A stretch of DNA of 64,000 nt from Leisingera daeponensis DSM 23529 (GTDB lineage: Bacteria > Pseudomonadota > Alphaproteobacteria > Rhodobacterales > Rhodobacteraceae). This document shows, piece after piece, positions 5,498 through 61,434 of the stretch; positions within the stretch are counted from its first letter, which is position 1, and each line of letters opens with the position of its first letter. The stretch spans positions 3,915,362 to 3,979,361 of the forward strand of contig NZ_KI421500.1 of the NCBI RefSeq assembly GCF_000473145.1. Direction: 5' to 3'. The position numbers and the translations under genes were made by a program. The notes under the pieces are model-generated. The model saw nothing but the letters and a program-made list of their open reading frames with translations, was not told where the DNA came from and ran no database searches.

Positions 5498-6343
5498 CTA
5501 ATGCGCCAGCAGAACCGGCAGCTCTGCCTGTTCGATCATGGTTCTGGTGGTGCCGCCAAAGACCGCCTCGCGCAGGCGGGAGTGGCCGTAGGCGCCCATG
5601 ACGACGAGGCCGGCCCCGGCCTCTTTGGCGCGCGACTGGATGAAGCGGCCGATCTCGGCCCCGCTGTCGGGATACTGCGAGACGGTGACAGTGCAGCCGT
5701 GGTGGCTGAGCCAGGCCGCGGCATCGGTGCCCGGATCCTCGCCGTCGCGCTGTTCGGTGATGTCGGGATCGAAGCAGCCGATGATGACCTCGCGGGCCTT
5801 GCGCAAGTAGGGCAGGGCGGCATGGGCCGCACGGGAGGCGGCCAGGCTGCTGTTCCAGGCCAGAAAGACGCGCTCATAGGCTGCAAACGGGCTGCCGTTC
5901 AGGATCACCGGCGCGGGCGATTGGAACAGCGCGCCGTGCAGGGCGTCGCGGAACACCTCGCCGTCGTGCCCCAGCCCCGCTGCCATCTGCACGATATCGC
6001 AGGTCTTGGCGCGCTGCGCCGCGTGCAGCCGCATCTCGGCGCCGGTGCAGACCGCGTATTGCGCATCCCCGGCGCAGCCGCAGCGCGACAGCATCTCCGC
6101 GATCGCGGCAGCCCGCGATTGCGCGGCGGTGCGGGCCGTGTTGAGGCGGTCGATCCAATCTTCGGGCATCGCCGCCGAGGCAAAGGCACTGGTGCCGAGG
6201 ATGAAATAGGGGCGGCCGGGCAGCTTATCCAGCAGCAGGCAGGCCAGATAGGCCTGCTCGTCCCGGGCTGCCTCTGCGGCGGCGGCCACCGCCGCGTCGG
6301 GGGTGTCTTTTCCGAGTGTAAACAGCACTGTTCTGCGTTGCAT
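5498..6343 (-). CDS. Universal stress protein, two-domain (UspA family)
   Basis: The 281-residue protein has the length of a tandem Usp. The second domain ends with the nucleotide-binding signature VVMGAYGHSRLREAVFGGTT (G-x2-G-x9-G-x-T type), so ATP binding is likely in that half. The first half, starting RRTVLFTLGKDTPD, is more diverged. The ATG at 6343 follows a GGAGG site. Usp proteins of this kind are induced by oxygen limitation or growth arrest and protect resting cells; their molecular action is unclear. An FNR-type box lies 82 nt upstream (6425-6438). Confidence 0.85.
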   Translation of the reverse strand: MQRRTVLFTLGKDTPDAAVAAAAEAARDEQAYLACLLLDKLPGRPYFILGTSAFASAAMPEDWIDRLNTARTAAQSRAAAIAEMLSRCGCAGDAQYAVCTGAEMRLHAAQRAKTCDIVQMAAGLGHDGEVFRDALHGALFQSPAPVILNGSPFAAYERVFLAWNSSLAASRAAHAALPYLRKAREVIIGCFDPDITEQRDGEDPGTDAAAWLSHHGCTVTVSQYPDSGAEIGRFIQSRAKEAGAGLVVMGAYGHSRLREAVFGGTTRTMIEQAELPVLLAH

Positions 6344-6424
6344 TGCGGGCCTCCGGACGCTGGGACGCGGCAGGCGGGCAGGCGCGCCGCCTGCATCAGT
6401 AGATCACGTCCGCACCGGGATGCC

Positions 6425-6438
6425 ATGATCCTGATCAA
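6425..6438 (-). promoter_or_regulatory. FNR/FixK-type box upstream of Usp gene
   Basis: On the minus strand it reads TTGATCAGGATCAT, matching TTGAT-N4-ATCAA at 9 of 10 positions. It lies 82 nt before the start at 6343. Confidence 0.75.
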
Positions 6439-6461
6439 TCCGGCGCGGCGGCGCGGCAGGG

Positions 6462-6896
6462 TCAGCGGGCCCAGAACACATGCTTGAAGTATCCGTTCAG
6501 GTCGAGCAGCCAACTGGCGGGCGGCAGCTGCAAAAGGGTCAGCACGGCCAGCGCGAGAACCGCCGCAAGCGCGATCAGCGCCTCGGTGCGGTGGCCCTGA
6601 GGCGCGGTTCCGCTGCCCCAGAGCAGGGACTTGAACACCGGCAGATGCAGCGCTGCGTGCCACAGGGAGAAGCCTGTAAACAGCACCGCCAGGACGATGT
6701 GCAGATCGCTCCAGCCCTGCCGGTCCAGCCCCAGAGCCTGCCAGCCGGTGGCGCTGGAAATCCTGCCCTTGGGCGCGAACAGCAAAAGACCGCCGCTGAG
6801 GAGAATGGCAGCGAAGGAGAAGGTCACGCCAAAGACGGCCAGGGCCCGGGCTGTGAGCCTGCCCTTAATGTGAGGGGGTGCATCGGTGTTGGACAT
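6462..6896 (-). CDS. DUF4405-like small membrane protein
   Basis: The 144-residue protein has four likely membrane helices: about 19-40, 64-86, a short one near 95, and 107-125. It contains conserved His and Trp residues (DLHIVLAVLFTGFSLWHAALH) of the sort seen in DUF4405 and cytochrome-b-like small membrane proteins, where the two His could bind heme; that is an inference from the spacing. The start at 6896 has a GGAGGCC ribosome site. It precedes the Usp gene in the same direction but is separated by 118 nt and a second FNR box, so the two genes can be transcribed independently. Confidence 0.6.
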   Translation of the reverse strand: MSNTDAPPHIKGRLTARALAVFGVTFSFAAILLSGGLLLFAPKGRISSATGWQALGLDRQGWSDLHIVLAVLFTGFSLWHAALHLPVFKSLLWGSGTAPQGHRTEALIALAAVLALAVLTLLQLPPASWLLDLNGYFKHVFWAR

Positions 6897-6951
6897 GTCG
6901 GGGCCTCCGGTCGGGTCAGCCGGAGTCTATCCCGGGAGAGAGGGGAGCGCT

Positions 6952-6965
6952 TTGATCCAGATAAG
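6952..6965 (-). promoter_or_regulatory. FNR/FixK-type box upstream of DUF4405-like gene
   Basis: The + strand reads TTGATCCAGATAAG (8 of 10). It lies 56 nt before the start at 6896. Confidence 0.65.
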
Positions 6966-11409: not shown

Positions 11410-11423
11410 TTGACCTTGCTCAA
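11410..11423. promoter_or_regulatory. FNR/FixK-type box between divergent E1alpha and kinase genes
   Basis: TTGACCTTGCTCAA matches 8 of 10 positions and is a clean TTGA-N6-TCAA palindrome. It is 46 nt before 11469 and 77 nt before 11333, so it could serve either direction. Confidence 0.65.
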
Positions 11424-13032: not shown

Positions 13033-13046
13033 ATGACTCCAATCAA
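13033..13046 (+). promoter_or_regulatory. FNR/FixK-type box upstream of small Usp
   Basis: ATGACTCCAATCAA (8 of 10) lies 54 nt before the start at 13100. Confidence 0.6.
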
Positions 13047-18378: not shown

Positions 18379-18392
18379 TTGTTCTGGATCAA
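18379..18392 (-). promoter_or_regulatory. FNR/FixK-type box upstream of the yhiI-rbbA-yhhJ-like operon
   Basis: The + strand reads TTGTTCTGGATCAA (9 of 10). It is 56 nt before the HlyD start at 18323. Confidence 0.7.
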
Positions 18393-18428
18393 GCCCCCTC
18401 AAGCGCGGCACCGCACGCGGGCCGCCCC

Positions 18429-18442
18429 TTAACCGCAGTCAA
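18429..18442 (+). promoter_or_regulatory. Degenerate FNR-type box upstream of sorAB
   Basis: TTAACCGCAGTCAA matches 7 of 10 positions, 124 nt before the sorA start. This is a weaker candidate than its neighbour at 18379. Confidence 0.35.
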
Positions 18443-24387: not shown

Positions 24388-24401
24388 TTGACGCGAGGCA
24401 A
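24388..24401 (+). promoter_or_regulatory. Degenerate FNR-type box upstream of Usp
   Basis: TTGACGCGAGGCAA (7 of 10) is 63 nt before the start at 24464, the spacing seen at the better boxes. Confidence 0.4.
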
Positions 24402-25456: not shown

Positions 25457-25826
25457 CGTCTTCCCTCCCGCTGATATGTGCGGGGTCAGGATCGGCCATT
25501 TCGGCGCGGGCCGCATTAATGGGCATCAATGCCGCCCGCAGCGGCCCTGCTCGGCCGGGAGGGCTGATCCGTTCGAACACCGCGTCCACCTGCACATCGG
25601 CACCGTCTGCGGCAGGACGCACATCAAACATTACCATAATACAGATTACAGGCTCTTTGAGGCCGGACCCCGGCTAAGGCCGCGGCGCTGCGTCCGGTCG
25701 ACAGAATCGCTTCGCGCCAGTATCGTCTCACTTGCACCGCGGGGCCATAGCACTCTACCGCCGGTCATTGTGCGGTACAGTATGCGGATCAGGACGCTAC
25801 TGGCATTTCGTGCGGGGAACGTATCA
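25457..25826. other. 370-bp gap between DUF2267 and Crp/Fnr genes
   Basis: It contains the FNR-type box at 25516-25529 and an A/T-richer stretch (25625-25665) in an otherwise GC-rich region, likely holding the promoter of the regulator. No convincing -35/-10 pair, terminator or further gene was found. Confidence 0.5.
25516..25529 (-). promoter_or_regulatory. FNR/FixK-type box upstream of DUF2267 gene
   Basis: TTAATGGGCATCAA matches 9 of 10 positions, 60 nt before the start at 25456. Confidence 0.7.
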
Positions 25827-26579
25827 GTGACACAGCAAGGCGCAATCCCGATACAATACACCAACGTGACCAGCCTGCGGATTGGCGCGATGGACTTCGG
25901 CAGCGATGACACCGCGCTGAACAGTTTCCGCAGGAACGTCCAGCGGGTGCCCGCAAACAAGATCCTGCTGCATGACGGCGAGCACAGCTGCAAGGTCATC
26001 GTGGTGATCGACGGCTGGCTGGCCACCTCGAAATCCTCTCTGAACGGCGAAGTGCAGCTGATCGACTTCATGCTGCCGGGCGACATCGCGGAATCGGCTG
26101 CGGCGGATGGCAAGACGGCCGGACTCAACATCGAGGCGGTCACCGATGCGCTGATCTCCGTCATTCCGCTGCCGGTCTGGCACCGGATGCTGGCGGAATC
26201 GCCGCGCCTGGCGCGGGCAAACGAGCAGGTGCAGGCCGCCGAGCGGGCGCGGCTGTCGGAGCGCATGCTGCGGCTGGGGCGCGGCAGCGCGGAAAGCCGC
26301 ATCGCCTATGCGCTGATTGAGCTGTGCATCAGGCTCAGGCTGCTGGGCCTGTCGGACAATTGCGCCTTTCACCTGCCGCTGACGCAGCGCCATATCGGCG
26401 ATTTCACCGGCCTGACCGCCGTCCACGTCTGCCGGACCCTGCGCCGCTTTGTCAGAAACGGGCTGGTCGAAACCGCCGATCACATGGATATCCGGATCAC
26501 CGATCTGGCCGCCCTGTCGGACATCGCCGGGGTGGAGCCGGAGCGGCTGGCGGCCGAAATCACGCCGCTGCCGGAATAA
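25827..26579 (+). CDS. Crp/Fnr-family regulator without Fe-S cysteines
   Basis: The protein has about 250 residues: a cyclic-nucleotide-binding-like beta barrel (25-130), a dimer helix (RLARANEQVQAAERARL) and a winged HTH with LTQRHIGDFTGLTAVHVCRT. The N-terminal cysteine cluster of FNR is missing. The recognition helix has A-V-H-V-C-R where FNR has V-E-T-I-S-R, so Glu209 and Ser212 equivalents are absent and only the Arg is kept. It therefore may not read the TTGAT boxes around it. GTG at 25827 follows GGGGAAC; ATG at 25782 or 25893 are alternatives. The ligand is unknown. Confidence 0.8.
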   Translation: MTQQGAIPIQYTNVTSLRIGAMDFGSDDTALNSFRRNVQRVPANKILLHDGEHSCKVIVVIDGWLATSKSSLNGEVQLIDFMLPGDIAESAAADGKTAGLNIEAVTDALISVIPLPVWHRMLAESPRLARANEQVQAAERARLSERMLRLGRGSAESRIAYALIELCIRLRLLGLSDNCAFHLPLTQRHIGDFTGLTAVHVCRTLRRFVRNGLVETADHMDIRITDLAALSDIAGVEPERLAAEITPLPE

Positions 26580-27732: not shown

Positions 27733-27746
27733 TTGACCGGCATCAA
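27733..27746. promoter_or_regulatory. FNR/FixK-type box between Hsp20 and Usp genes
   Basis: TTGACCGGCATCAA (9 of 10), flanked by GG and CC so that the palindrome extends. It is 97 nt before the Usp start (27843) and 117 nt before the Hsp20 start (27616). Confidence 0.7.
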
Positions 27747-38348: not shown

Positions 38349-38393
38349 ACTGTCATCCTGTTTAACTGAGTACCCAGGAAGCTGCAGAGCAGT

Positions 38394-38422
38394 TTGAAAT
38401 CGCAGCTGCCAACAGCTGCAAT
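38394..38422 (+). promoter_or_regulatory. Putative sigma-70 promoter in gap
   Basis: TTGAAA (38394-38399), 17 bp, TGCAAT (38417-38422). It points toward the small ORF at 38458. Confidence 0.45.
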
Positions 38423-38457
38423 ATGCACAGGATAAGGTAATAAGGGGTTAAAAACAA

Positions 38458-38592: not shown

Positions 38593-38633
38593 CGGCCCGC
38601 CAGGCACACAGTCCGCGCGGGCGAGCGGAAGAC

Positions 38634-38653
38634 ATGCGGCTGCCGCATTTTTT
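38634..38653 (+). terminator. Rho-independent terminator without annotated gene upstream
   Basis: ATGCGG-CTG-CCGCAT followed by TTTTTT (38648-38653). Both neighbouring large genes are on the minus strand, so this + strand terminator must belong to something in the gap. Confidence 0.7.
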
Positions 38654-38667
38654 CCGGCAGACCTGAA

Positions 38668-38695
38668 AGCAGCCGCCGCGATTGCGGCGGCTGCT
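38668..38695 (-). terminator. Terminator hairpin of Gly/Asn-rich secreted protein gene
   Basis: A perfect 12-bp stem AGCAGCCGCCGC / GCGGCGGCTGCT with loop GATT, 58 nt after the stop at 38754. On the minus strand a short TTT follows. Confidence 0.65.
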
Positions 38696-38753
38696 CCAGT
38701 CACAGCTCAGGCCCGGAAGAAATCAGGGGCCCGTTGCTTGTCAGCCCGGAAGC

Positions 38754-39827
38754 TTACAGAACAGCCCGCGCAATGCGGAGCATCTGAAGGAGCTCGTATT
38801 CCGACTGGTTCAGCTTCACCAGCTGCCCGTTCAGCACGGCGTAACTCTCATCTGCGCGCGGCTGCGGAAGACGGTACAGGCTGATCAGCTCCTCCTGCGT
38901 CAGGGCTGCTGTCGGGGCAATCGGCACCCCGGCCTCCAGGTCTGCCAACTGTGCCATCTGGTTCACCAGAAGCAGCGAGGTGTAATCCTCCTCGTCGAGC
39001 AGGACCGGCATACCGTCGATCAGAGCATACCGCTGGCCATCAGGCGCGGGATCGAGACCGAAGAGCGTCGCAACCTGGTCCGACTGCAGCAGCAGAAGCC
39101 CGGGGTCCGGATCGGCACCGGCTTCGGCGCTCAGCCAGGCGTCGCGGCGCTTCACCCAGATCTCATCGTACCCATCGTGACCGTAGGAGGCCCATTCGTC
39201 AAAGGTCACGCCTTTCTTGGCCAGGCCGGGCGGCACGCAAGGCGGATCCTTTTTTGCAAGGCCCGGCGGGCAATTGCTGTAGATGATCAGCTCATCGTCC
39301 GGGATGCCGGACGCCAGCAGCTGCGGGGTTGCCAGGGCGAGCGCCGCCGCACCCGCGACGCGCGCCATGTCGCGGCCCGCCGGCGCCGGTGCCGAAACGA
39401 TGCGGCGCACGGCTTCTTCACGCTCTGCCGCGGTGAAGGCCCGGCGGTCCTTGGCGCCGCCACCGTTCCCTTCGGGTGCGTTCCTGGCACCGGCGCCGCT
39501 CTGCTTGGGCTTGGGGCCGCCCGCATGTTCAGGCTTGCCGCTGGCGGCGTGATCGTTTCCCTGGCCCGGCTTGGCGTGTCCATTGCCGGCATTGGCGTTC
39601 CCGTTGCCGGGGTTGCCCTTGCCCTTCTCGGCGCGCTTCATGCTGCCGCCCCCGTTGCCATTGCCCTTGCCGTTTCCGTTGCCGTTGTTGCCCTTGGCGA
39701 GCCAGATCTGCTCGCCGTCCGCCATGCCGAAGCCGGCGAAGCCGCCCTGCGCATGGAACGGGGCCGCGGACAGGGATGTCGAAGCCAGGGCAAGCGCCAC
39801 GGCGCCGCCGATCACGAACTTATTCAT
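38754..39827 (-). CDS. Secreted protein with Gly/Asn-rich linker and CPPGLAKK repeats
   Basis: The 357-residue protein has a signal peptide (1-21). Residues 46-120 are low complexity (GNNGNGNGKGNGNGGG, then GNPGNGNANAGNGHAKPGQG). A globular region follows with two copies of a CPPGLAKK/CVPPGLAKKG element (about 185-205), and a C-terminal half with two related segments (DGQRYALIDGMPVLL and DESYAVLNGQLVKLN) that look like an internal duplication. The function is unknown; it may bind the envelope or a metal. A strong AAAGGAG site precedes the ATG at 39827. Confidence 0.75.
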   Translation of the reverse strand: MNKFVIGGAVALALASTSLSAAPFHAQGGFAGFGMADGEQIWLAKGNNGNGNGKGNGNGGGSMKRAEKGKGNPGNGNANAGNGHAKPGQGNDHAASGKPEHAGGPKPKQSGAGARNAPEGNGGGAKDRRAFTAAEREEAVRRIVSAPAPAGRDMARVAGAAALALATPQLLASGIPDDELIIYSNCPPGLAKKDPPCVPPGLAKKGVTFDEWASYGHDGYDEIWVKRRDAWLSAEAGADPDPGLLLLQSDQVATLFGLDPAPDGQRYALIDGMPVLLDEEDYTSLLLVNQMAQLADLEAGVPIAPTAALTQEELISLYRLPQPRADESYAVLNGQLVKLNQSEYELLQMLRIARAVL

Positions 39828-40185
39828 GCCAATCTCCTTTTGTCTCGGACCTCAACGCGGCAAGCCAGCGCCGCGTTCCCCGGCTCCGGGCATCGGGCCG
39901 CGCCTTCCGCAGGCGGCGCAGCGTGAAGGAACCGGGCACAGGCCGGTCCAGCCCCGCCAAGCGCAAGAGACCGGCAAGCAGAACCGGATTGCCGCGTTCG
40001 GGACCACCGGCAGGCACCCGGCCCCGCCCTCATGCACAGTGGTGGCCCCGGAAAGCTGGCCCCGGAAGCGGGGTGCCGGTCTCAGAACCAGACCGGTCAA
40101 TGCGGTATCGCGCGATACCGGGCGCGGCATTGCCGCAGACCGGGACAACAGCGAACATGCTCCCGGACCAGTCAGGGAGATTGAT
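39828..40185. other. 358-bp gap upstream of aromatic operon
   Basis: It is divergent between the secreted-protein gene and the aromatic operon. The only clear signal is the 18-bp palindrome at 40103-40120; no other gene was found. Confidence 0.5.
40103..40120 (+). promoter_or_regulatory. Perfect 18-bp palindrome, candidate LysR operator (GGTAT-N6-ATACC)
   Basis: CGGTATCGCGCGATACCG is a perfect palindrome 66 nt before the GTG start at 40186. Its GGTAT-N6-ATACC core recurs at 46548-46563 in front of the other two operons of the cluster. Confidence 0.65.
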
Positions 40186-40560
40186 GTGCTCGAAAAAATT
40201 GAAGCGATGCAGCAGGCGCTCGGCCGGACACCGCATCTTGTCAGGCTGGGGCGGCTTTTCTCCGAAACGGTCCTGCTGCAGGTCGACGAGGCGGAATATT
40301 ACCTTCATTTCGAGAAGGGCGAATTGGTTCGCGTGGAGGCGGGGCCCAGCCGCAAGACCGCTTGGCGTTTCGCTGTCAGGACCGACGCCGCGGCGCTGCG
40401 GGCTTTCTGGACGGCACGGCCCGCGCCCGGATTTCACGACCTGTTCGGCCTGGTCAAGATCGACCGGGCGCGCATCGACGGCGACATCCTGAGCCTGGTC
40501 AAGAACCTGCGGTTCTTCAAGGAATTCCTCGCCCTCGGACGCGGAGAGGCGGCGGCATGA
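40186..40560 (+). CDS. Small SCP2-like protein of aromatic operon
   Basis: The 124-residue protein starts at GTG 40186, six bases after GGGAGA. The core YYLHFEKGELVRVEAGPSRK and FFKEFLALGRG resembles a short SCP2-like alpha/beta fold that binds hydrophobic ligands. No catalytic motif is evident. It is the first gene of an operon with an alpha/beta hydrolase (ATGA overlap) and a BKACE enzyme. It may bind or isomerise a pathway intermediate, perhaps standing in for the missing muconolactone isomerase; this is only a suggestion from position. Confidence 0.6.
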   Translation: MLEKIEAMQQALGRTPHLVRLGRLFSETVLLQVDEAEYYLHFEKGELVRVEAGPSRKTAWRFAVRTDAAALRAFWTARPAPGFHDLFGLVKIDRARIDGDILSLVKNLRFFKEFLALGRGEAAA

Positions 40561-41414
40561 GTATCGAACCCATCACCGGGCGCTATGCCACCGTCCAGAT
40601 CGAAGGCCGCCCGCAGCGGATCTATTTCGAAGAGGCCGGATCCGGCCGTCCCGTCTTGTGCCTGCATACGGCGGGTGCCGACACCCGGCAATGGCGGCAC
40701 CTGATGAACGATGCCGCCGTGACCCGCAGCCACCGGCTGATCGCCTTCGATATGCCCTGGCACGGCAAGTCGCTCCCGCCCGAGGGGTTCGAGCGGGAGG
40801 AATACCTGCTGACCACCGGGACGTACATCGCGACGGTTCTGGCCGTCTGCGAAACCCTTGGACTGGAGCGTCCCGTCCTCGCCGGATGCTCCATGGGCGG
40901 ACGGATCGCCCTGCAACTGGCGGCGCTTCATCCCGAACGGTTTTCCGGATTCATCGCCATCGAGGCCTCTGATTTCCAGCCCGCCTGGTATGACATCGAC
41001 TGGTTCGACCGGCCCGACGCGCATGGCGGGCAGATGGGCGCGGCGCTGGTTTCGGCCAATATCTCGCCCTACGCGCCCGAGACCGAGCGCTGGAATACGC
41101 TCTGGATGTTCATGGCGAGCGGCCCGGGTGTGTTCCGCGGGGACCTGAGCTTCTACACCCGCGACGACAGCCTGACCGGACGGCTGGACCGGATTGATAC
41201 GGCCCGCACCCCGGTGCATCTGCTGGTGGGCGCCTATGACCTGACCTGCACGCCGGCAGACGCGGAACGCACTGCCGCGGCGATCCCGGGCGCGACCTGC
41301 ACGGTCATGGACGAACTCGGCCACTTCCCGATGAGCGAACATCCCGAGGGGTTCCGGCCCTTCTTCATCGACGCCCTCGCGCGGATGACGGCAGAGCGGG
41401 AGGCGGTTGCATGA
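40557..41414 (+). CDS. Alpha/beta hydrolase, enol-lactonase-like
   Basis: The 285-residue alpha/beta hydrolase has an oxyanion segment LHTAGADTRQW, nucleophile elbow GCSMGG (Ser112), Asp228 in GAYDLTC and His256 in ELGHFPMSEHP, a complete triad. Members such as PcaD open 3-oxoadipate enol-lactone; placement with a cycloisomerase and BKACE supports lactone hydrolysis here. Start and stop overlap both neighbours by ATGA, so the three genes are co-translated. Confidence 0.78.
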   Translation: MSIEPITGRYATVQIEGRPQRIYFEEAGSGRPVLCLHTAGADTRQWRHLMNDAAVTRSHRLIAFDMPWHGKSLPPEGFEREEYLLTTGTYIATVLAVCETLGLERPVLAGCSMGGRIALQLAALHPERFSGFIAIEASDFQPAWYDIDWFDRPDAHGGQMGAALVSANISPYAPETERWNTLWMFMASGPGVFRGDLSFYTRDDSLTGRLDRIDTARTPVHLLVGAYDLTCTPADAERTAAAIPGATCTVMDELGHFPMSEHPEGFRPFFIDALARMTAEREAVA

Positions 41415-42253
41415 GCAGCCCTTGCATCATCTGTGTGGCCATCACCGGGTCCCTGCCGCAGAAATCCGACAATCCGGCTGTGCCGGTCTCGATCGGGGAG
41501 CAGGTGGAAAGCACCCAGGCGGCGCATGAGGCGGGGGCCAGCATCGTCCATGTCCATGTGCGCAATCCCGACGGCACCCCAAGTTCCAGCCCGGAGCGTT
41601 TTGCACGCCTGCTGGAGGGGCTGCGCAAGCACTGCCCGGACATCGTGGTCCAGTTCTCTACCGGCGGCCGGTCGGGCGCCGGCCGGGACCGCGGCAGGAT
41701 GCTGCCGCTGAAGCCGGACATGGCCTCGCTTTCGGTCGGATCCAACAATTTCCCGGCCAGGGTCTACGAAAACCCGCCTCAGCTGGTCGACTGGCTGGCG
41801 GCGGAAATGGCCGCATACGGGATACGGCCCGAAATCGAGGCCTTCGACCTGTCGCATATCCTGATGGCACACCGGATGTGGCAGGACGGCCGCCTGCGCG
41901 ACCGGCCCTACGTGCAATTCGTGATGGGGGTGCAGAACGCCATGCCCGCCGACCGGGAGGTGTTTAACTATTACGTGCAGACCATGCACCGCCTGTTCGG
42001 CACGGATGCGCCGTGGTGCGCCGCCGGCATCGGACGGCACCAGATCGAGCTGAACGACTGGGCGATCCGGGCGGGGGGCCATGTCCGCACCGGGCTCGAA
42101 GACAACGTGCGGCTGGACCGCGATACCCTGGCGCCGTCCAATGCCGCACTGGTGGCCCGGGCGGCGGCGCTCTGCGCCCGGCATCAGCGTCCGGTGGCAA
42201 CCCCAGCCGAGACCCGCGCCATCCTCGGCCTGCATCAAACGGCCGCGGCTTGA
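41411..42253 (+). CDS. BKACE-family beta-keto acid cleavage enzyme
   Basis: The 280-residue TIM barrel has the metal motif SIVHVHVRNPDG (two His) and VQFSTGGRSG, as in 3-keto-5-aminohexanoate cleavage enzymes. These Zn enzymes condense a beta-keto acid with acetyl-CoA and split it to acetoacetate and a new acyl-CoA. In this operon the natural guess is beta-ketoadipate (or maleylacetate), giving succinyl-CoA (or an unsaturated C4-CoA) plus acetoacetate. No CoA transferase or thiolase gene is in the cluster. It converges with the LysR gene. Confidence 0.85.
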   Translation: MSSPCIICVAITGSLPQKSDNPAVPVSIGEQVESTQAAHEAGASIVHVHVRNPDGTPSSSPERFARLLEGLRKHCPDIVVQFSTGGRSGAGRDRGRMLPLKPDMASLSVGSNNFPARVYENPPQLVDWLAAEMAAYGIRPEIEAFDLSHILMAHRMWQDGRLRDRPYVQFVMGVQNAMPADREVFNYYVQTMHRLFGTDAPWCAAGIGRHQIELNDWAIRAGGHVRTGLEDNVRLDRDTLAPSNAALVARAAALCARHQRPVATPAETRAILGLHQTAAA

Positions 42254-42281
42254 AAACGCCAGGCGCGCTCTGCGCCGGCGG

Positions 42282-43184
42282 TCACCGGCCTTCCTTCTGG
42301 ATCCTGCGGGCAAAGTTCTTGGCCAGGGAGGTGAAGTTCTGGGTATGCACCCCCTGGTTGTCCTGCCGCACGGCAAGGGAAATCGTCGTGCCCGGATTGT
42401 GCCCGGTGTAGTCGCGGTACACGACTCCGTGGCGCGGCGACAACGACACCGAGCGCGGCACCAGCGCAATGCCGACCCCCACCGAGACCAGCGAAATCGC
42501 TGATTGGAAATCCTGCGCCAGGACCTCCTTGGCAGGAATGAAGCCTTCCTTCTTGCACACGTCGAGGATCTGGTCGGCAAAGCTGGGCCGGGGACGGCGC
42601 GGATAGAGCACGAAGGTCTCGCGCTTCAGCCCGGCCAAGCGCAATTCCCCGGCGCGGGCCAGTCCGGACTCGGCGGGAACAGCCAGAATCAGCGGCTCTT
42701 CGTGGAACGGAAAACAGCGGATCTCTTCGTCGCTCAGCGCCGGGCGGGCGAAGGCCACGTCGATGTGGCGCGCGATCAGGGCGGTCTTCAGCTCGGCATT
42801 GTTCATCGCCGACAGCGCCAGTTCGATGTCGGGATACGCATTGCGGAACTCGCGGATCAGTTCGGGCAAGACTCCGTGGCTCGCGGTGCCGACAAAGGCG
42901 ATGCGCAACCGGCCCGCAGCGCCTTCGCCGATGCGGCGCACTTCGCGTTCGGCGCGCTCCACCAGATCCATGATGTCACGCCCGCGCTTAAGCAGGGCAT
43001 CCCCGGCCTGGGTCCTGCGGATCTGGCTGCGCGACCGGTCGAAGAGCAGCACGCCCAGATCGGACTCAAGCTGCGCGATCTGGCGGCTGAGAGGCGGCTG
43101 CGCGATGCCCAGCCGGGTGGCGGCGCGGCCGAAATGCAGCTCTTCAGCCACTGCCACGAAATAACTCAATCGCCTGAAATCCAT
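42282..43184 (-). CDS. LysR-family regulator of the aromatic cluster
   Basis: The 300-residue regulator starts MDFRRLSYFVAVAEELHFGRAA, the typical LysR N-terminal HTH, with an effector domain from about 90. It resembles CatR/BenM-type regulators of muconate pathways. The start at 43184 is set by GAGGGGAGGAAGG; 16 extra codons upstream are ignored. It lies last in the leftward operon (51 nt after the cycloisomerase gene). It is the likely reader of the GGTAT-N6-ATACC sites. Confidence 0.86.
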   Translation of the reverse strand: MDFRRLSYFVAVAEELHFGRAATRLGIAQPPLSRQIAQLESDLGVLLFDRSRSQIRRTQAGDALLKRGRDIMDLVERAEREVRRIGEGAAGRLRIAFVGTASHGVLPELIREFRNAYPDIELALSAMNNAELKTALIARHIDVAFARPALSDEEIRCFPFHEEPLILAVPAESGLARAGELRLAGLKRETFVLYPRRPRPSFADQILDVCKKEGFIPAKEVLAQDFQSAISLVSVGVGIALVPRSVSLSPRHGVVYRDYTGHNPGTTISLAVRQDNQGVHTQNFTSLAKNFARRIQKEGR

Positions 43185-43235
43185 GGCCTTCCTCCCCTCG
43201 GTCATCATTTGCCGCCCGACCGCGCAGGACAAGCT

Positions 43236-44414
43236 CTAAGATGTCCGCAGGGCGTCGCGCAGGCGGTCTTCGTCGAGATGCACGCCAAGGCCCGGCCCCT
43301 GCGGCACGCGCAAGTGGAAATCCTCGATCACCAGCGGGTCGCGCACGATCTCGGAGACATGCAGGCGCGGGCCGAAATGCTCGCACCCCCAGGGCAGGCG
43401 GGGCAATGCGGCAAACACCGCCAGATGCGCGGCCGCCCCGATCGAGCCTTCCAGGAGACAGCCGCCGTAAAGCTCCATACCGCTGCTTTCCGCGACCCTC
43501 GCCGCCTGGGACAGCGCCATAAGCCCGCCGCTCTTGACCAGTTTGAGCGAATAGACGCTGCCGCAGCCCATGGTGCCGGCCCGGGTGATTTCCCGGTGGG
43601 TAAAGGCCGCCTCGTCAACCATCAGCGGGATCGGGCTGCGCGCGGCCACCCGCGCCATGCCCTCGAAATCGTCGCCGGGCAGCGGCTGTTCGATCAGGTC
43701 GACCTGCAGTTCCTGCAAGGCAGGCAGGTAGCGGCGGCAGTCCGCCTCGCTCCAGGCCTGATTCACGTCGACGATCAGGCGGCGCATGCCCGGCACCTCC
43801 TCGCGCAGCTTCTGCAGACGGCGCAGGTCGGCCTCGGGGCTGTCAAAGCCCAGCTTGATCTTGAAATCACGGTGTTCACGGGCGGCCAGCTTGGCGCGGG
43901 CCTCCTCGGCCTCCTGGTCGGCATCGCCCGAGGCCAGCGCCCAAAGCACCGGCACCCGGTCGCGAACCGCTCCGCCGAAGAACGTTGCCGCCGGCACCCC
44001 GAGCGTGCGCGCGAGGGCATCAAAGACCGCGGCCTCGATGGCCCCCTTGGCGGAATTGTTGCGAAAGGCGGCCCGGGCCATGCGCGCCGCCACCGCGGCG
44101 GGCTGCGCGGCGGGACAGCCGGCCAGCGCGGGCGCAAGGTAGCGGGTGATCACAGACTGGATCGATTCCACCGATTCCTCGGCCCATCGCGGCCCGCCCA
44201 GAACCGCCGCCTCGCCGATGCCTTCGATGCCGTTCGCCAGCCGCACCCGGACCAGGACAAACTCGCGGGTGCTGAACTCGGTGTTGGACAGGCGGTGCGC
44301 GCGAATGCTGGGCAGGGTGACGATCTGGGCCCGGATCTCGCGGATCGCGGTCTCTCGGTTCAGATCCTGCCCCTGCGGCAGGGTGCCGGCACCTTCGGCG
44401 GCGGAATACGCCAT
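43236..44414 (-). CDS. Muconate-cycloisomerase-like enolase-superfamily enzyme
   Basis: The 392-residue protein shows the MLE-subgroup catalytic set: K-x-K in FKIKLGF, Asp in VDVNQAW, Glu in IEQPLPG, Asp in MVDEAAF and Lys in SLKLVKSGG. It would cycloisomerise cis,cis-muconate or a substituted muconate to a muconolactone. Its place beside an intradiol dioxygenase supports that; other MLE-subgroup reactions such as dipeptide epimerisation are unlikely here. It has 20-odd extra N-terminal residues compared with common CatB. Confidence 0.82.
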   Translation of the reverse strand: MAYSAAEGAGTLPQGQDLNRETAIREIRAQIVTLPSIRAHRLSNTEFSTREFVLVRVRLANGIEGIGEAAVLGGPRWAEESVESIQSVITRYLAPALAGCPAAQPAAVAARMARAAFRNNSAKGAIEAAVFDALARTLGVPAATFFGGAVRDRVPVLWALASGDADQEAEEARAKLAAREHRDFKIKLGFDSPEADLRRLQKLREEVPGMRRLIVDVNQAWSEADCRRYLPALQELQVDLIEQPLPGDDFEGMARVAARSPIPLMVDEAAFTHREITRAGTMGCGSVYSLKLVKSGGLMALSQAARVAESSGMELYGGCLLEGSIGAAAHLAVFAALPRLPWGCEHFGPRLHVSEIVRDPLVIEDFHLRVPQGPGLGVHLDEDRLRDALRTS

Positions 44415-44485
44415 TGGGTTCTCCTTGGTAATGGATGCAGAAGCCCCGAGGGACGCCCCGCGGGCGCCCCAGGGGAAGGCACGGG

Positions 44486-45355
44486 TTACTTCGCCGCCGC
44501 GGCGCGGGCCCCGGCCTCGGGCTTGAGGCGGAAATCGAAGCTCATCACCAGGTCGGTGCCGGCCCCGTCGGGCGCGGGTTTCATGTCGCCGATCAAGCTC
44601 TCCTTGACGGCAAAGACCGCGTCGTTGTCGAGATACTCGGTCTCGCTGTCGTAGATCTGGCTGATCAGGGGCTTGTAGCCGGGCTTGGTGATCATGAAGT
44701 GGATATGCCCGGGGCGCATCGGATGGTGGCCCATGTAGTTCAGCAACTCGCCCGCCGCGCCGTCATAGGGGATGGGATAGGGCTCGGGGCGCAGGCCCAC
44801 GAAGTCGTAGGAGCCATCGGCGCCGGTCAGGAAACGGCCGCGCAGGTTGTAATCCGGCTGATCGGGGTCCTGCTGTTCATAAAGCCCGTTCGGCGCATCC
44901 TCCCAGACGTCGATCTGCACGCCTTCGATCGGATTGCCGCCGGTATCCAGCACGCGGCCCGACACGCGCACGGTTTGCTGACCCTCGAAGTCCTTCTGCA
45001 CAATGCTGGCGCCTTTGGGAAGAACCGGCGGGTTCTCACGGTAGAACGGGCCCAGCACGGTGCTTTCGCTTTCGCCCTCGGTGACCTGATTGCCGAGCAT
45101 GTCGACCAGCACCTCGACCCCGAGGATGTCGCAGATCAGGATGAATTCATTGCGCGCATCGCTCGAAATCTCGCCCGCCCGGCGCATCCATTCGCAGCCC
45201 TCGAGCCATTCGCCGTGGGTCAGGTTCACTTCCTTGGCGAAGGCATGGAAATGCTTCAGCGCCGAGGTCATGATCTCGCGGTTGCGGGCTGGGATATCGG
45301 GTTTCATCGCGTTTGTGACGGCCTCGGTGATGTTGTCCAGGGTGATGTTGCGCAT
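44486..45355 (-). CDS. Intradiol ring-cleavage dioxygenase (hydroxyquinol/catechol 1,2-dioxygenase type)
   Basis: The 289-residue protein has the N-terminal helical dimer domain and the Fe(III) site: Tyr in GLYEQQ, Tyr in PYPIPYDG and two His in HPMRPGHIHF. The stretch PYPIPYDGAAGELL with EYLDNDAVFAVKESLI is closer to hydroxyquinol 1,2-dioxygenases than to classic CatA. It opens the ring between two hydroxyls. With hydroxyquinol the product would be maleylacetate, with catechol a muconate. The downstream cycloisomerase favours a (substituted) muconate, so the real substrate is open. Confidence 0.85.
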   Translation of the reverse strand: MRNITLDNITEAVTNAMKPDIPARNREIMTSALKHFHAFAKEVNLTHGEWLEGCEWMRRAGEISSDARNEFILICDILGVEVLVDMLGNQVTEGESESTVLGPFYRENPPVLPKGASIVQKDFEGQQTVRVSGRVLDTGGNPIEGVQIDVWEDAPNGLYEQQDPDQPDYNLRGRFLTGADGSYDFVGLRPEPYPIPYDGAAGELLNYMGHHPMRPGHIHFMITKPGYKPLISQIYDSETEYLDNDAVFAVKESLIGDMKPAPDGAGTDLVMSFDFRLKPEAGARAAAAK

Positions 45356-45388
45356 CGGTTCTCTCCTCTTTTGCGTGTGTCTTGGGCG

Positions 45389-45910
45389 TTACCAGATCGC
45401 CTCGGCGATAGGGTCGCAAAGCTCTGGTGCCGGAGCCTGGCCGGCGATGGCGCCGAAACTGCCCTTGTAGAAGATCAGCGGCCGCGCCCCGGGATCGGTT
45501 GCCAGCTTCCGGACGCGGCCGATAAAGATCGTGTGATCGCCCGCCTGCACCTCGTTGACGATGTCGCAGGCATAGGCCGCCAGCGCGCCGCGGATCACCG
45601 GCAGGCGGTCGAGATCTTCGAATGGATTGGACAGCCCCTCGACCGGGCGTCCCGCGAAGTGCCAGGCCAGCCGCTCGGAGTTTTCAGACAGCGTGCTGAC
45701 CGAGAAGCGCCCGGTCTGTTGCAGGTGCGGCAGGATCTTCGCGCGTTCCCCGATGGAGACGCAAATCAGCGGCGGATCAAGCGACACCGACATGAAGGCA
45801 TTGGCGGTCATCCCGTGGTCGCCATCGGCATGGCGCGTGGCGATGACGTTGACGCCGGTGCCGAACAGGCCGCAGGCATCGCGAAGCTGGCGGGGGTCAG
45901 GCCGGGTCAT
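45389..45910 (-). CDS. Flavin reductase of two-component monooxygenase
   Basis: The 173-residue flavin-reductase-domain protein (MTANAFMSVSLDPPLICVSI, DHTIFIGRVRKL) reduces FAD or FMN with NAD(P)H for a partner oxygenase. Its ATG at 45910 overlaps the FAD synthetase gene stop (ATGA). The partner oxygenase is encoded divergently at 46655. The conserved family sequence begins at this ATG; the open frame upstream is another gene in a different frame. Confidence 0.86.
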   Translation of the reverse strand: MTRPDPRQLRDACGLFGTGVNVIATRHADGDHGMTANAFMSVSLDPPLICVSIGERAKILPHLQQTGRFSVSTLSENSERLAWHFAGRPVEGLSNPFEDLDRLPVIRGALAAYACDIVNEVQAGDHTIFIGRVRKLATDPGARPLIFYKGSFGAIAGQAPAPELCDPIAEAIW

Positions 45911-46473
45911 GCGGGTGTCTCCGGGTTGAGGCCGGGGCGCAGAAGCGCTGCCGCAGCGGCGGTGAGGCCTTGTTCCAGCAGGCCGCGGATACGGGTCGAG
46001 GATACCACCTCGCCCGCGGCGCAGCGCACCGGCGGCTGGATATGAACGTCGAAGCGGCGCGCCAGCAGGCTGACGCCGCCCGCCTGTTTCGCGCCAAAGC
46101 GGAAATCGCCGCCGACGCGGATCTCCTGCGGCCGCAGGCGGGCCAGCCGGGCCATGAAGGCTTCGGGGGACAGGGACCGCAGCGCCTCGCCGAAGGAAAA
46201 GACCACGACGTGATCGGGGCCGAGCGCCGAGATGCGGGCCAGTTTTTCCGCCAGCGGGCAAAGCTGCGCGGCACGGCCGAAAAAGACCTTGGGCGGCGGA
46301 TCGAAGGTGCAGACCACCGATGGCACGCCCAGGGCGCGGGCTCTCCTCACCGTGCCGGCGATCAGCGCCTGGTGGCCGGAATGCACGCCGTCGAACGCAC
46401 CCAGCGTAACGACGCTTGCGCCAAGTGACGGCACATCGCGATGCCAGTGCGTCAGGTCGGGTTGGTCAAACAT
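45907..46473 (-). CDS. FAD synthetase-like adenylyltransferase without riboflavin kinase domain
   Basis: The 188-residue protein has the nucleotidyltransferase motifs of the RibF N-terminal domain: [28 protein letters not shown] and [12 protein letters not shown]. The usual 120-residue riboflavin kinase domain is absent, so it could only turn FMN into FAD. It is the first gene of the leftward operon (GGAGGAGG before the ATG at 46473). Together with the flavin reductase it would supply FAD to the monooxygenase. Confidence 0.82.
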
Positions 46474-46536
46474 GGCGGCCTCCTCCTCCGGTCTGCCGGT
46501 TGGCCTGACCTTAGCGGCGCCGGGCGGCCGGACGCG

Positions 46537-46563
46537 ATACCCGCACCGGTATGCTGTCATACC
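46537..46563. promoter_or_regulatory. LysR-type operator between divergent aromatic operons
   Basis: Three half-sites ATACC (46537-46541), GGTAT (46548-46552) and ATACC (46559-46563). The last two form GGTAT-N6-ATACC, the same as at 40104-40119. It lies 75-90 nt from both divergent start codons. Confidence 0.65.
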
Positions 46564-46654
46564 TAGCCGCACCGGCCATGAGAAACGCAGGATCAGGGCC
46601 ATCCCGGCGGATGGCACACTGGCCGTTCCGTCGCTTCATCGGAGGAAAAAGACC

Positions 46655-48223
46655 ATGCCCAAAGACGCCCTTCCCGGTTCCAGGACCGAGGTTTTCACCG
46701 GACAGGAGTTCTTGGAAAGCATCCAGGACAGCCGCGAAATCTATATCTATGGCGAACGTGTGAAGGACGTGACCAAGCACCCCGCCTTCCGCAATTCCGC
46801 CCGCATGGTGGCGCGCTGGTACGACAAGTTCCACGAACGCAAGGATGTGATCGGCGTGCAGGCCGACAACGGCTCGGGCAATGTCACGCACCCTTTCTTC
46901 CTGGGTTCGAAGACAAGCGGGGACCTGATAAAAAGCCGCGACGCCGTGGCCGAGCTGCAAAAGGTCTCCTACGGCTGGATGGGCCGGTCGCCTGATTACA
47001 AGGCTGCCTTCCTCGGCACCCTGGGCGCCAACAGCGGCTTTTACGGCGAATACGCCGGCAATGCGCTGAACTGGTACAACAAGACCCAGAACCGGCTGGA
47101 CTACTGGAACCACGCCATCGTCAACCCGCCGATCGACCGCGACCGCGCGATCGAGGAGGTCCGCGACGTGTTCATGCATGTGGAAAAGGAAACTGACGCC
47201 GGGCTGATCGTCTCGGGGGCAAAGGTGGTTGCCACCGGGTCGGCGCTGACCCATTACAACTTCATCGCCCACTACGGCATTCCGGTGAAGGACAAGGAAT
47301 TCGCGCTGATCTTCACCGCGCCGATGGACGCCGAAGGGGTCAAGCTGATTGCCCGGTCGTCCTATGAATTCAACGCCGCCGCAACCGGATCGCCGTTCGA
47401 CTACCCGCTGTCCTCGCGGATGGATGAAAACGACTCGATCCTGGTCTTCGACAAGGTGCTGGTCCCCTGGGAGAACATCTTCGTCTATGGCGACACCGAT
47501 AAGATCAACCAGTTCTTCCCCGCCTCGGGCTTCGTGCCGCGCTTTACCCTGCACGGGCTGACGCGGCTGTCTGTGAAGCTCGATTTCATCGCCGGGCTGT
47601 TTTCCATGGCGGTCGAGGCGACGGGGTCGAAGGATTTCCGCGGCGTGCAAACCGCGGTGGGCGAGGTGCTGGCCTGGCGCAATCTGTTCCACGGGCTGTC
47701 CGACGCCATGGTGAAATCGCCGGTCCCCTGGGAGGGCACGGACGGCTACAATCTGCCCAACACCAACGTCGGCCTCGCCTACCGCGTCTTCGCGCCGATG
47801 GCCTATGGGCGGATCAAGGAGCTGATCGAACGGCATGTGGCCTCTGGACTGATCTATCTGCCCTCCTCGGCCGCCGATTTCGAAAGCGATGCGATCCGCC
47901 CCTACCTCGACCGTTTCGTGCGCGGCTCGAATGGCTACGCGGCCATCGACCGGGTCAAGCTGCTCAAGCTGCTCTGGGACGCCATAGGCACCGAGTTCGG
48001 CGGGCGGCATGAGCTCTACGAGCGCAACTACGCGGGCAACTACGAAAATATCCGCATCGAAACCCTGCTGAACGCCACCGCCAACGGCGATCTCGCCAAC
48101 CTGCAGGGCTTCGTGTCGCAATGCATGGGCGAATACGACCTGTCCGGCTGGACCGGCAAGGACCTGATCAACCCCGACGACATCAGCCTCGTCGGACGCG
48201 GAATGCTTCAGGGCTTCGGCTGA
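46655..48223 (+). CDS. HpaB-family FADH2-dependent phenol monooxygenase
   Basis: The 522-residue large component belongs to the 4-hydroxyphenylacetate 3-hydroxylase family (HpaB, TftD, PheA). It begins [30 protein letters not shown] and contains [19 protein letters not shown] and [13 protein letters not shown] of the flavin-binding region. It hydroxylates a phenol next to an existing hydroxyl using FADH2 from the reductase encoded across the divergent promoter. GGAGGAAAA precedes the ATG. It is monocistronic: a strong terminator follows. Confidence 0.87.
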
Positions 48224-48235
48224 TTTCCACAGGTC

Positions 48236-48272
48236 AAAGGGCCGCCCCGCAGACAGAGGCGGCCCTTTCTCC
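48236..48272 (+). terminator. Rho-independent terminator of monooxygenase gene
   Basis: An 11-bp perfect stem AAAGGGCCGCC / GGCGGCCCTTT (48236-48246 with 48258-48268), an 11-base loop and a short T tail, 12 nt after the stop at 48223. Confidence 0.82.
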
Positions 48273-48494
48273 ATCCAACAGAACCTGGTGCCGCCGGACA
48301 GCCTCCGCGGGGCCTCGGCCTTGCGCCGCAGGATGGCATGGCGGGTTTCGCGATTTCGAGGCTCGCAGCTTCCACCCTGCATCCTTCGCCCGAAACCTTT
48401 ACGCCCGGCAGCGGGCGCACCGTTCAACCCCGCATCAACCGGGCGGCAGGCGCCGGAATTGCTGAGCCGCCGCAATTCTGGCACTCTGGTGCAG

Positions 48495-50168: not shown

Positions 50169-50182
50169 TTGAGGCAGATTAA
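50169..50182 (+). promoter_or_regulatory. FNR/FixK-type box upstream of cytochrome c gene
   Basis: TTGAGGCAGATTAA (8 of 10), 79 nt before the start at 50261. Confidence 0.6.
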
Positions 50183-50726: not shown

Positions 50727-50740
50727 TTGAGCGGCATCAA
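50727..50740 (+). promoter_or_regulatory. FNR/FixK-type box upstream of ppsA
   Basis: TTGAGCGGCATCAA (9 of 10), 59 nt before the ATG at 50799. Confidence 0.72.
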
Positions 50741-55142: not shown

Positions 55143-55156
55143 ATGATTTGCATCAA
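55143..55156 (-). promoter_or_regulatory. FNR/FixK-type box upstream of the pfkB operon
   Basis: ATGATTTGCATCAA (9 of 10), 61 nt before the start at 55082. Confidence 0.68.
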
Positions 55157-59374: not shown

Positions 59375-59388
59375 GTGATCAGGATCAA
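59375..59388 (-). promoter_or_regulatory. FNR/FixK-type box upstream of adh-lon-usp operon
   Basis: GTGATCAGGATCAA (9 of 10), 48 nt before the start at 59327. Confidence 0.7.
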
Positions 59389-60133: not shown

Positions 60134-60136
60134 CCG

Positions 60137-60436
60137 CTAACCGTCGCCGAGGACGGCCAGCCGCCGCAGCATCTCTTCCCGCTCCGCCAGCAGGTCCAGC
60201 ACCAGCGCCACCCCCGCGGTATTGACCCCCAGATCCCGGTTCAGGCGCCGCGCTTTCTTGGCGCGGGCAATGCTCAGACTATGGAACTGCCAGCTCTGGA
60301 CCGAGGCCCCTTCCGGTTCCAGCACCCCATGCTCAACCAGGTCGATGATCCAGTTCCTGTCAGCCTGGCAAAACCGGCACAACTCATCCAGCGACAGGCT
60401 GACAACAACAGCAGTTTGTACGGTTGCGGGTTTCAT
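60137..60436 (-). CDS. cbpM: Chaperone modulator CbpM
   Basis: The 99-residue protein resembles CbpM/MerR-type HTH proteins: LSLDELCRFCQADRNWIIDLVEHGVLEP, then SIARAKKARRLNRDLGVN and a C-terminal helix. CbpM binds the J-domain of CbpA and restrains it. The ATG at 60436, 4 nt after the cbpA stop, is chosen over an upstream ATG at 60460 that overlaps cbpA. Confidence 0.83.
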   Translation of the reverse strand: MKPATVQTAVVVSLSLDELCRFCQADRNWIIDLVEHGVLEPEGASVQSWQFHSLSIARAKKARRLNRDLGVNTAGVALVLDLLAEREEMLRRLAVLGDG

Positions 60437-60440
60437 GCGT

Positions 60441-61361
60441 CTATCCTCCGATACCAGCACGCGGGTTGAACGGCACCTCCCGGGCCATCTGTTCGAAGAC
60501 CCTGCGCGCTTCCTCCGTTGTCACCTTGGGGTTCACGATCCTCAGCGTGGCATAGATGTCTCCGGGCGGCATGCCCGGCAGCCCCTTGCCCTTCAGCCGC
60601 AGCTTCTGGCCCGAGCGGGCATTTGCAGGCACCGTCAGTGCAACCTTGCCATCCGGCGTGGGCATCATCACCTTGCCGCCCAACGCCGCCTCCCAGGGGG
60701 CCACCGGCAGGTCCAGATACAGATCCCGGCCGTCCGCCCGGTAGACCGGATGCGGGGCGAAGCTCACCTCCAGAAACAGATCCCCCGGCACCCCTCCGCC
60801 CAGCGGCGCCAGGCCCTGGCCCGGCAGCCGGATGTGCTGGCCCTCAAGGATGCCTTTCGGGACATGCACCGTGATGCTGCGGTCCTGCAGATGCACCGAC
60901 CCGTCCGCAGCCGCCTGCGGCACCCGCAGCGTCAGCACCCGGGTTGCGCCGCGGTAGGCGTCCTCGATGTCCAGCTGCAGGCGGGCGTGCTGATCAGCGC
61001 CGGAGCCGCCAAACGGCTGCCCCCGGCGCCGGAAGAGGGATTCGAAGAAGTCGCTGAAGGCCTCGGCACCTTCCGGTCCGCCGCCGGTGAATTCGAAACC
61101 GCCTTCCCATCCCGGCGGCGGGCGGAAGCCGCCTTCGGGTCCTGGACCGGGTTTGCCCAGCTGGTCATAGGCGGCGCGGCGTTCCGGGTCTTTGAGCACT
61201 TCGTAGGCTTCGTTCACATCCTTGAACATCGCCTCGGCCTCGGGACTGGCGTTGATGTCCGGGTGGTATTTGCGCGCCAGTTTGCGGAAGGCGCGCTTGA
61301 TTTCGCCGGGTTCGGCATCCGGTGCGATGCCGAGAATTTTGTAGTAGTCCCTGTATTCCAT
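60441..61361 (-). CDS. cbpA: DnaJ-class co-chaperone CbpA
   Basis: The 306-residue protein has a J domain (1-70, HPD at 33-35), a Gly/Phe-rich linker (GFRPPPGWEGGFEFTGGG) and two C-terminal substrate-binding domains; the zinc domain of DnaJ is missing, as in CbpA. It hands substrates to DnaK. GGGGAG precedes the ATG at 61361, and an FNR box is 60 nt upstream. Order cbpA-cbpM is conserved in many bacteria. Confidence 0.9.
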   Translation of the reverse strand: MEYRDYYKILGIAPDAEPGEIKRAFRKLARKYHPDINASPEAEAMFKDVNEAYEVLKDPERRAAYDQLGKPGPGPEGGFRPPPGWEGGFEFTGGGPEGAEAFSDFFESLFRRRGQPFGGSGADQHARLQLDIEDAYRGATRVLTLRVPQAAADGSVHLQDRSITVHVPKGILEGQHIRLPGQGLAPLGGGVPGDLFLEVSFAPHPVYRADGRDLYLDLPVAPWEAALGGKVMMPTPDGKVALTVPANARSGQKLRLKGKGLPGMPPGDIYATLRIVNPKVTTEEARRVFEQMAREVPFNPRAGIGG

Positions 61362-61420
61362 GCCACAGCTCTCCCCGCGCCAGTGCGTCCGCAGTGTGCC
61401 ATGGCGGAGGCGGCGGCGGG

Positions 61421-61434
61421 TTGATCCGGATCAT
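61421..61434 (-). promoter_or_regulatory. FNR/FixK-type box upstream of cbpAM operon
   Basis: TTGATCCGGATCAT (9 of 10), 60 nt before the start at 61361. Confidence 0.75.

Follow-up and report, generated by a model that had tools for sequence, protein, structure and literature searches.

Do the FNR-like boxes scattered over one replicon of Leisingera daeponensis DSM 23529 form a regulon, and which protein would read them? The window analyzed here is a stretch of 64,000 nt near the end of the largest contig (C2) of this genome. A sequence-only reading had described 15 sites resembling TTGAT-N4-ATCAA in it as a replicon-wide FNR/FixK-type regulon in two blocks. Our analysis of the sequence makes it probable that FnrL, encoded on the chromosome, controls about a dozen promoters on a 69.1-kb repABC plasmid, in front of genes for survival and energy. 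The sites make up a conserved regulon of the FNR type carried on an accessory plasmid, which is most likely read in trans by the chromosomal FnrL.

FNR-type boxes along the plasmid

Sites were scored against the 10 fixed positions of TTGAT-N4-ATCAA. All 15 carry the kind of sequence that had been described and all lie outside called genes. A recount gave the same nine one-mismatch sites (9/10) as before, while the remaining six match 8/10 (6952, 11410, 13033 and 50169) or 7/10 (18429 and 24388). The chance of a 9/10 match had been put at about 3 in 100,000 per position, which is right at equal base use (31 of 4^10). Among the 13 better sites, that is, all but the two at 7/10, the box centre lies 52 to 88 nt ahead of the nearest start codon in 12, nine of which fall at 54 to 72 nt.

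Enrichment was assessed against shuffled, coding and chromosomal DNA. Matches with at most two mismatches number 27 in the window, versus 7.9 (standard deviation 2.9) in dinucleotide shuffles, and none of 100 shuffles reached 27. On the plasmid, taken as the window plus the 5.1-kb tail of the contig, all nine matches with at most one mismatch are intergenic and none is coding, with intergenic DNA accounting for 6.5 of the 69.1 kb. The chromosome sample comprised 18 of 20 stretches of 20 kb, L111 and L120 having been picked for known boxes and set aside; it contained three such matches in 49.8 kb of intergenic DNA and five in coding DNA. The density of intergenic 9/10 sites is therefore about 23 times higher on the plasmid than in the chromosome sample. 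For the other replicons, compared with the exception of the 276-kb C4, the counts were zero for C1, two intergenic and two coding for C3, and three intergenic and one coding for C5; the intergenic calls in all these counts, those for the plasmid included, come from a simple in-house gene caller that calls an implausible 68 of the 174 kb of C5 intergenic. Genome-wide, 120 sites with at most one mismatch occur in 4.64 Mb, nine of them on the plasmid (Poisson p approximately 6e-5 for the plasmid versus the rest). Two sister plasmids with complete records, one from L. aquaemixtae R2C4 (NZ_CP041158, 59.8 kb) and one from L. caerulea S185 (NZ_CP081087, 70.3 kb), each carry nine boxes with at most one mismatch, and their deposited annotation places 9/9 in intergenic DNA in both cases. 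The earlier assertion that the sites are not background is borne out by this enrichment over coding, chromosomal and shuffled DNA; equal densities were not seen in any of these comparisons.

An independent matrix was built from 26 R. sphaeroides FnrL sites determined by chromatin immunoprecipitation (ChIP) and tabulated in PMC2908626 (two of the 28 sequences had negative scores and were set aside). When the plasmid was ranked with this matrix, the best 11 places were all listed intergenic sites and the 12th was coding. At a score of 12, the plasmid had 18.8 hits per 100 kb versus 6.7 in the chromosome sample.

The nine 9/10 boxes front a varied set of genes, with operon membership assigned from strand and spacing. 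The box at 6425..6438 lies 88 nt before the first of three Usp genes with a better box (5498-6343, minus strand), and one-mismatch boxes occur at -88 before its orthologues in relatives G014, G004 and G006. Next in order, the box at 18379..18392 lies 68 nt before an operon for HlyD, RbbA-like and ABC-2 proteins (18317 down to 13504, minus strand), and that at 25516..25529 lies 66 nt before a DUF2267 gene (25031-25456, minus strand), a distance also kept before orthologues. The box at 27733..27746, which has the top matrix score of the plasmid, is shared by a divergent pair, an Hsp20 gene followed by a CBS gene (Hsp20 at 27062-27616, minus strand) and a Usp gene (27843-28685, plus strand), with its centre 104 and 123 nt from the two. 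At 29260..29273, a box 72 nt before a gene without a Pfam match (28748-29194, minus strand; -72/-73 before orthologues) has arms identical at 40/40 positions and a spacer identical at 11/16. The phosphoenolpyruvate (PEP) synthase gene (50799-53180, plus strand) follows the box at 50727..50740 by 65 nt; a box with one mismatch stands at -65/-66 in G014, G004, G016, G006, G010 and L043, and one with two mismatches at -71 in L044. The last three are the box at 55143..55156, 67 nt before a PF20603 hydrolase gene (54573-55082, minus strand) that is followed by a small gene and a PfkB gene (-66/-67 in Leisingera genomes); the box at 59375..59388, 54 nt before a Zn alcohol dehydrogenase gene (58347-59327, minus strand) followed by a LonB-like gene and one more gene (-54/-55 before orthologues); and the box at 61421..61434, 66 nt before a DnaJ/CbpA-like gene (60441-61361, minus strand; -66 before orthologues) followed by CbpM-like and DUF5765 genes.

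The four 8/10 boxes were more variable in quality. The box at 6952..6965 lies 62 nt before a DUF4405 gene (6462-6896, minus strand), or 132 nt if the shorter start in the R2C4 record is used, and has a weak matrix score of 10.4. A single box at 11410..11423 is shared by the divergent genes for a pyruvate dehydrogenase (PDH) E1a subunit (10239-11333, minus strand) and an APH/AAA kinase (11469-12995, plus strand). The box at 13033..13046, 60 nt before a Usp gene (13100-13507, plus strand), scores 15.1 and is 7/10 in both relatives compared. Finally, the box at 50169..50182 lies 85 nt before a cytochrome c gene (50261-50665, plus strand), scores a weak 10.4, is 7/10 in G004 and was not found in L043. 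The Pfam scan behind these assignments covered the window genes other than 40557, 41411, 45907, 61473 and 62902.

In relatives the arms of the palindromes are more conserved than spacers and flanks. Pooled over 14 sites (all except 24388) in relatives other than the nearest one, G014, identity was 333/370 (0.90) in the arms, 108/148 (0.73) in the spacers and 1468/2220 (0.66) in the flanks, the relatives not being independent of one another. The PF20603 gene, present in 38 of 394 family genomes, was examined over a wider set. The 300 nt upstream of it were read in 29 other family genomes (29 of 40 matched places, not counting that of the window); 12 have a box with no more than one mismatch and 23 have one with no more than two, and 22 of these 23 boxes sit at -53 to -86; shuffles, which preserve single-base composition only and were run without the corrected stretches L132 and L144, gave about one. 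Upstream of the Na/Pi symporter gene (48495), a 9/10 box is present in G016 and an 8/10 box in G010, while G014 and G004 reach at best 7/10 and the window 6/10, so that a box has been gained or lost there.

Several of our results weigh against the reading of these sites as one FnrL-controlled set. At a loose matrix score of 8 the plasmid is barely denser than the chromosome sample (40.5 versus 34.2 per 100 kb), only 6 of the 15 sites attain the value of 15.1 that 90% of the sites from ChIP reach, and the scores of 6952 and 50169 are lower than that of any ChIP site in the matrix. Sites 13033 and 50169 drop to 7/10 in some relatives, 6 of the 29 family genomes have no box with at most two mismatches ahead of the PF20603 gene, and the box is not kept ahead of this gene in L044 and L039. 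Several plasmid operons also lack a box: no good one was found for repABC, the radical SAM/UdgX genes, the P-type ATPase, SulP, the Na/Pi gene or the plasmid regulator, nor for GDH unless it is read together with the PDH operon. The term "replicon-wide" thus holds in that FNR-type sites are spread over the replicon, and fails for repABC, radical SAM/UdgX, SulP, the P-type ATPase and a 19-kb insertion, none of which has a good box.

The weakness of two of the 15 sites and the near-equal density at loose matrix thresholds would suit chance matches in AT-richer intergenic DNA. This explanation is contradicted by the presence of nine sites in 6.5 kb of plasmid intergenic DNA versus three in 49.8 kb of chromosomal intergenic DNA, by arms that are more conserved than spacer and flank, and by distances to the start codon that are the same in relatives; we rejected it and give it practically no weight. 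On the sequence evidence there is good support for a regulon of the FNR type distributed over one replicon, because intergenic enrichment, the independent FnrL matrix, the conserved arms, the PF20603 box in 23 of 29 genomes and a genuine FnrL gene (see below) all point to it.

The two 7/10 sites differ from the others. At 18429..18442, ahead of a sulfite-oxidase-like operon, lies a conserved palindrome, TTAACCGCAGTCAA, with arms identical in the four relatives compared (40/40). It sits in a longer conserved stretch that includes a second GTCAAAT motif, and the element at 18425-18475, TTAACCGCnGTCAATGCG...GTGGTCAAATG or close to it, is conserved in five aligned sequences. The palindrome is kept in G004, G016 and G006, where no TTGAT box exists. 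A search of the strain's own genome for TTRAC-N4-GTCAA returned five places, with no second copy of the 18429 sequence. The weak site at 24388..24401 precedes a Usp gene by about 69 nt, provided that this gene starts at 24464, and the site's conserved half is GCAATGC instead of ATCAA. Both were rejected as good FNR boxes, being conserved in another pattern than FNR arms, and they are probably not FNR boxes at all.

Candidate readers of the boxes

The HTH_Crp_2 profile gave 27 matches in the genome, and seven of the best nine, which were inspected, look like Crp/Fnr proteins. The sole one of the seven with both an N-terminal cysteine cluster and a whole ETVSR helix is encoded on the chromosome at C2:2153958, and this protein scores 457.9 bits with the FnrL model NF045989 (cut-off 300). 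The FixK model NF050806 reached at best 112.8 bits, on FnrL itself, against a cut-off of 300 in six of the seven proteins (those other than L011), and FixK was rejected as the reader since none was found among these six. Of the proposed FNR/FixK-type regulon of 15 sites, what stands is an FNR-type regulon of 13 sites.

On the chromosome, the neighbours of six box places were scanned, a set that does not include the perfect box at 3,696,617. Four of the six adjoin genes already known to be controlled by FnrL, namely a COX2 gene next to PmbA/TldD, a COX1 gene, a ccoN-like COX1 gene with a Usp gene, and fnrL itself with a radical-SAM gene. The same target neighbourhoods have been published for R. 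sphaeroides (PMC2908626). Three points count on the other side: the other two chromosomal perfect boxes adjoin a sulphur-transport gene and a gene for a protein without a Pfam match, partial FNR helices are found in two other Crp/Fnr proteins (REAVSK in L007 and LHTVSR in L006), and FNR, FixK and DNR boxes are described as too similar for sequence to separate (PMC2908626).

The plasmid also encodes a Crp/Fnr-like regulator of its own (25827..26579, plus strand), which could in principle read most of the boxes and make the regulon self-contained. It lies inside the cluster and has an orthologue in G014, G004, G016 and G006 and on the R2C4 and S185 plasmids. However, it lacks the N-terminal cysteine cluster and has GLTAVHVCR where FNR and FixK2 carry ET.SR, it did not turn up in the 60 kb of G010 that were read and that retain five of the boxed genes, and the box nearest to its own start is 304 nt upstream and not kept in four relatives. 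We rejected it as the main reader on the missing cysteine cluster and the divergent helix, and consider such an arrangement unlikely. The called or annotated genes of this plasmid and of the two complete sister plasmids include none for an FnrL-type protein. A short sequence, GTCGACAGAATCG (25697-25709), precedes the gene for the plasmid Crp/Fnr-like protein and is conserved between the window and four relatives, and the alignment contains no FNR box. FnrL is favoured because it has the cysteine cluster and the ETVSR helix, both lacking in the plasmid's regulator, and the chromosomal FnrL is most likely the reader of the boxes, in trans.

A mixed arrangement was considered as well, with FnrL reading most boxes and a DNR/NnrR-type nitric oxide regulator or another Crp/Fnr protein reading some. 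FNR and DNR sites overlap (PMC2908626), Dinoroseobacter shibae has four Crp/Fnr regulators of which DnrE governs many plasmid genes (PMC5398030), and DSM 23529 has denitrification genes (PMC3910554). L006 and L007 retain part of the FNR helix, and L006 weakly matches the structure of P. aeruginosa DNR (3dkw, E 7e-7). On the other hand, of the seven strong Crp/Fnr proteins FnrL alone has the whole E-xx-SR helix, and the FnrL model was the sole one to pass its cut-off in the six scanned, a result that says little about DNR since no DNR model was among the matches. We regard this division of labour as doubtful, though a real possibility.

With FnrL as the reader, the proposed mechanism would run as follows. 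When oxygen falls, the chromosomal FnrL would keep its iron-sulphur cluster and dimerize, and the dimer would bind the TTGAT-N4-ATCAA-like boxes, mostly centred 54 to 72 nt ahead of the start codon, a position from which it can recruit RNA polymerase. FnrL would act as an activator, and the predicted output (Usp, Hsp20, DnaJ, LonB-like and CBS proteins, PEP synthase, PfkB, alcohol dehydrogenase and a PDH) would constitute a low-oxygen survival programme.

Gene content and known low-oxygen systems

Gene content and published work on other bacteria suggest that the boxed genes form one low-oxygen programme with survival value. In composition the set is similar to the alphaproteobacterial FixK regulon, here apparently wired to FnrL. 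The FixK core regulon of Dufour et al. 2010 includes, behind a TTGAT-N4-ATCAA-type box, Hsp20, HlyD, ABC subunits including a permease, CBS, cytochrome c, a kinase and a Zn alcohol dehydrogenase (PMC2908626), all of which were matched here by family name. It differs in that no FixK is present among the Crp/Fnr proteins scanned here, that the genes lie together on one plasmid, and that its phosphoketolase (PMC2908626) is not among the Pfam matches obtained.

Similar lists have been reported elsewhere. Low-oxygen-induced genes of Bradyrhizobium diazoefficiens, several of them contained in bll4644 to blr4659, include Usp, CBS, DnaJ, PEP synthase, a 1-phosphofructokinase-family kinase, Hsp20, HlyD and alcohol dehydrogenase (PMC6515984), again matched by family name, whereas that species belongs to another bacterial order and its regulation involves FixK2 (PMC6515984). 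The FnrL regulons of R. sphaeroides and D. shibae share with our system the box, FnrL, Usp targets and the chromosomal oxidase/usp/fnrL/radical-SAM neighbourhood (PMC2908626, PMC5398030), and Usp genes are direct FnrL targets in D. shibae (PMC5398030). As described in these papers, both regulons have oxidases, haem and denitrification at their core, while the plasmid examined here carries stress proteins and carbon and energy enzymes (PMC2908626, PMC5398030).

With many promoters of an accessory plasmid seemingly under one chromosomal oxygen sensor, a whole regulon could be transferred at once and come under a regulator already present in its new host. It is about an even bet that the plasmid represents a portable hypoxia-survival programme, in which a FixK-type target set is carried on an accessory replicon without an FNR/FixK regulator of its own and could be run in trans by any FnrL-bearing roseobacter. 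If so, low-oxygen survival would vary among Leisingera species with the presence or absence of the gene set. Among 21 Leisingera genomes, the window's own counted, strong matches were found to the LonB-like protein in 5, to PF20603 in 6 and to CBS in 7. The LonB-like gene of G010 (L069, G010:C5) contains one in-frame TAG. A family search with the Usp of 27843 added 8 of 294 genomes, with identities of 33-35%, a result that was not used. In the open-licence literature, searched by titles and the openings of abstracts, we found nothing presenting these plasmids as a low-oxygen regulon.

The replicon and its insertion

The genome of DSM 23529 comprises 4,642,596 bases in five contigs (3,984,464, 275,981, 174,096, 117,447 and 90,608), and its genome paper, which treats the strain as Phaeobacter (now Leisingera) daeponensis, describes a chromosome of 3,984,464 bp and four plasmids (PMC3910554). 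The window starts immediately after 100 Ns (at the end of L076) and is followed by the last 5,103 bases of the contig (L077), giving a segment of 69,103 bases. Both ends of this segment meet 5 bases apart inside the complete R2C4 plasmid, within a mechanosensitive-channel gene, and they also meet in relatives G004 (contig C2) and G014 (contig C4); an exact-word test on the S185 plasmid located one of the two ends. The segment has adjacent repA, repB and repC genes, with RepC (61473..62729, minus strand) and RepB (62902..63918, minus strand) inside the window and RepA just beyond it in L077. The other three RepC-like proteins of the genome share at most 42% identity with the RepC of this segment.

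The window appears to be most of a 69.1-kb repABC plasmid, the fifth of the strain, hidden behind 100 Ns at the end of the chromosome scaffold; this is suggested because of the Ns at the join, the ends that close as a circle in sister plasmids and the segment's own repABC. The deposited record would instead fit plasmid DNA truly integrated in the chromosome, with no independent circle: the segment forms the last part of the chromosome contig, and a chromosome of that same length with only four plasmids is described in the genome paper (PMC3910554). The 100 Ns, the stop of the contig where the R2C4, G014 and G004 circles close, and a repABC module with such a distinct RepC tell against integration, which we judge very unlikely. 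A correction of the type-strain genome is suggested, with a fifth plasmid of DSM 23529 apparently placed at the end of the chromosome scaffold.

The "two blocks" seen earlier are one block, opened by an insertion of about 19.1 kb (29298..48403) that is absent from the sister plasmids compared and holds no 9/10 box. Proteins of 29,298-48,403 had no match in the compared stretches of ten relatives. The R2C4 and S185 plasmids carry the same rep genes and most genes in shared blocks. Between the same neighbours they have, in place of the insertion, slightly more than 5 kb of different genes, including acetate-CoA ligase and PDH-like genes. They also carry an antiporter, GerW/DUF2953 genes and a glutamine amidotransferase that were not seen in the window, and S185 has a further accessory segment and is without SulP, GDH and the first PDH genes. 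A repeat search at the insertion revealed no clear flanking repeats or mobile-element ends. The inserted genes encode a DUF995 protein, an RTX-repeat protein, a glycosyl transferase/deacetylase, a DUF3131 protein, a LysR regulator, a muconate-lactonizing-type enzyme, a catechol dioxygenase, a flavin reductase and an HpaB hydroxylase.

A few minor observations concern other parts of the plasmid and the published record of its relatives. A perfect 18-bp palindrome near the rep genes (61457-61474) is identical in R2C4 and may have a role in partition. The RepC types of pCaer_B246 and pCaer_E70 are swapped between Tables 5 and 6 of PMC3910702. A HipA-family gene (1420-2730) adjoins the P-type ATPase gene, and the sister plasmids have a small helix-turn-helix gene ahead of their HipA gene.

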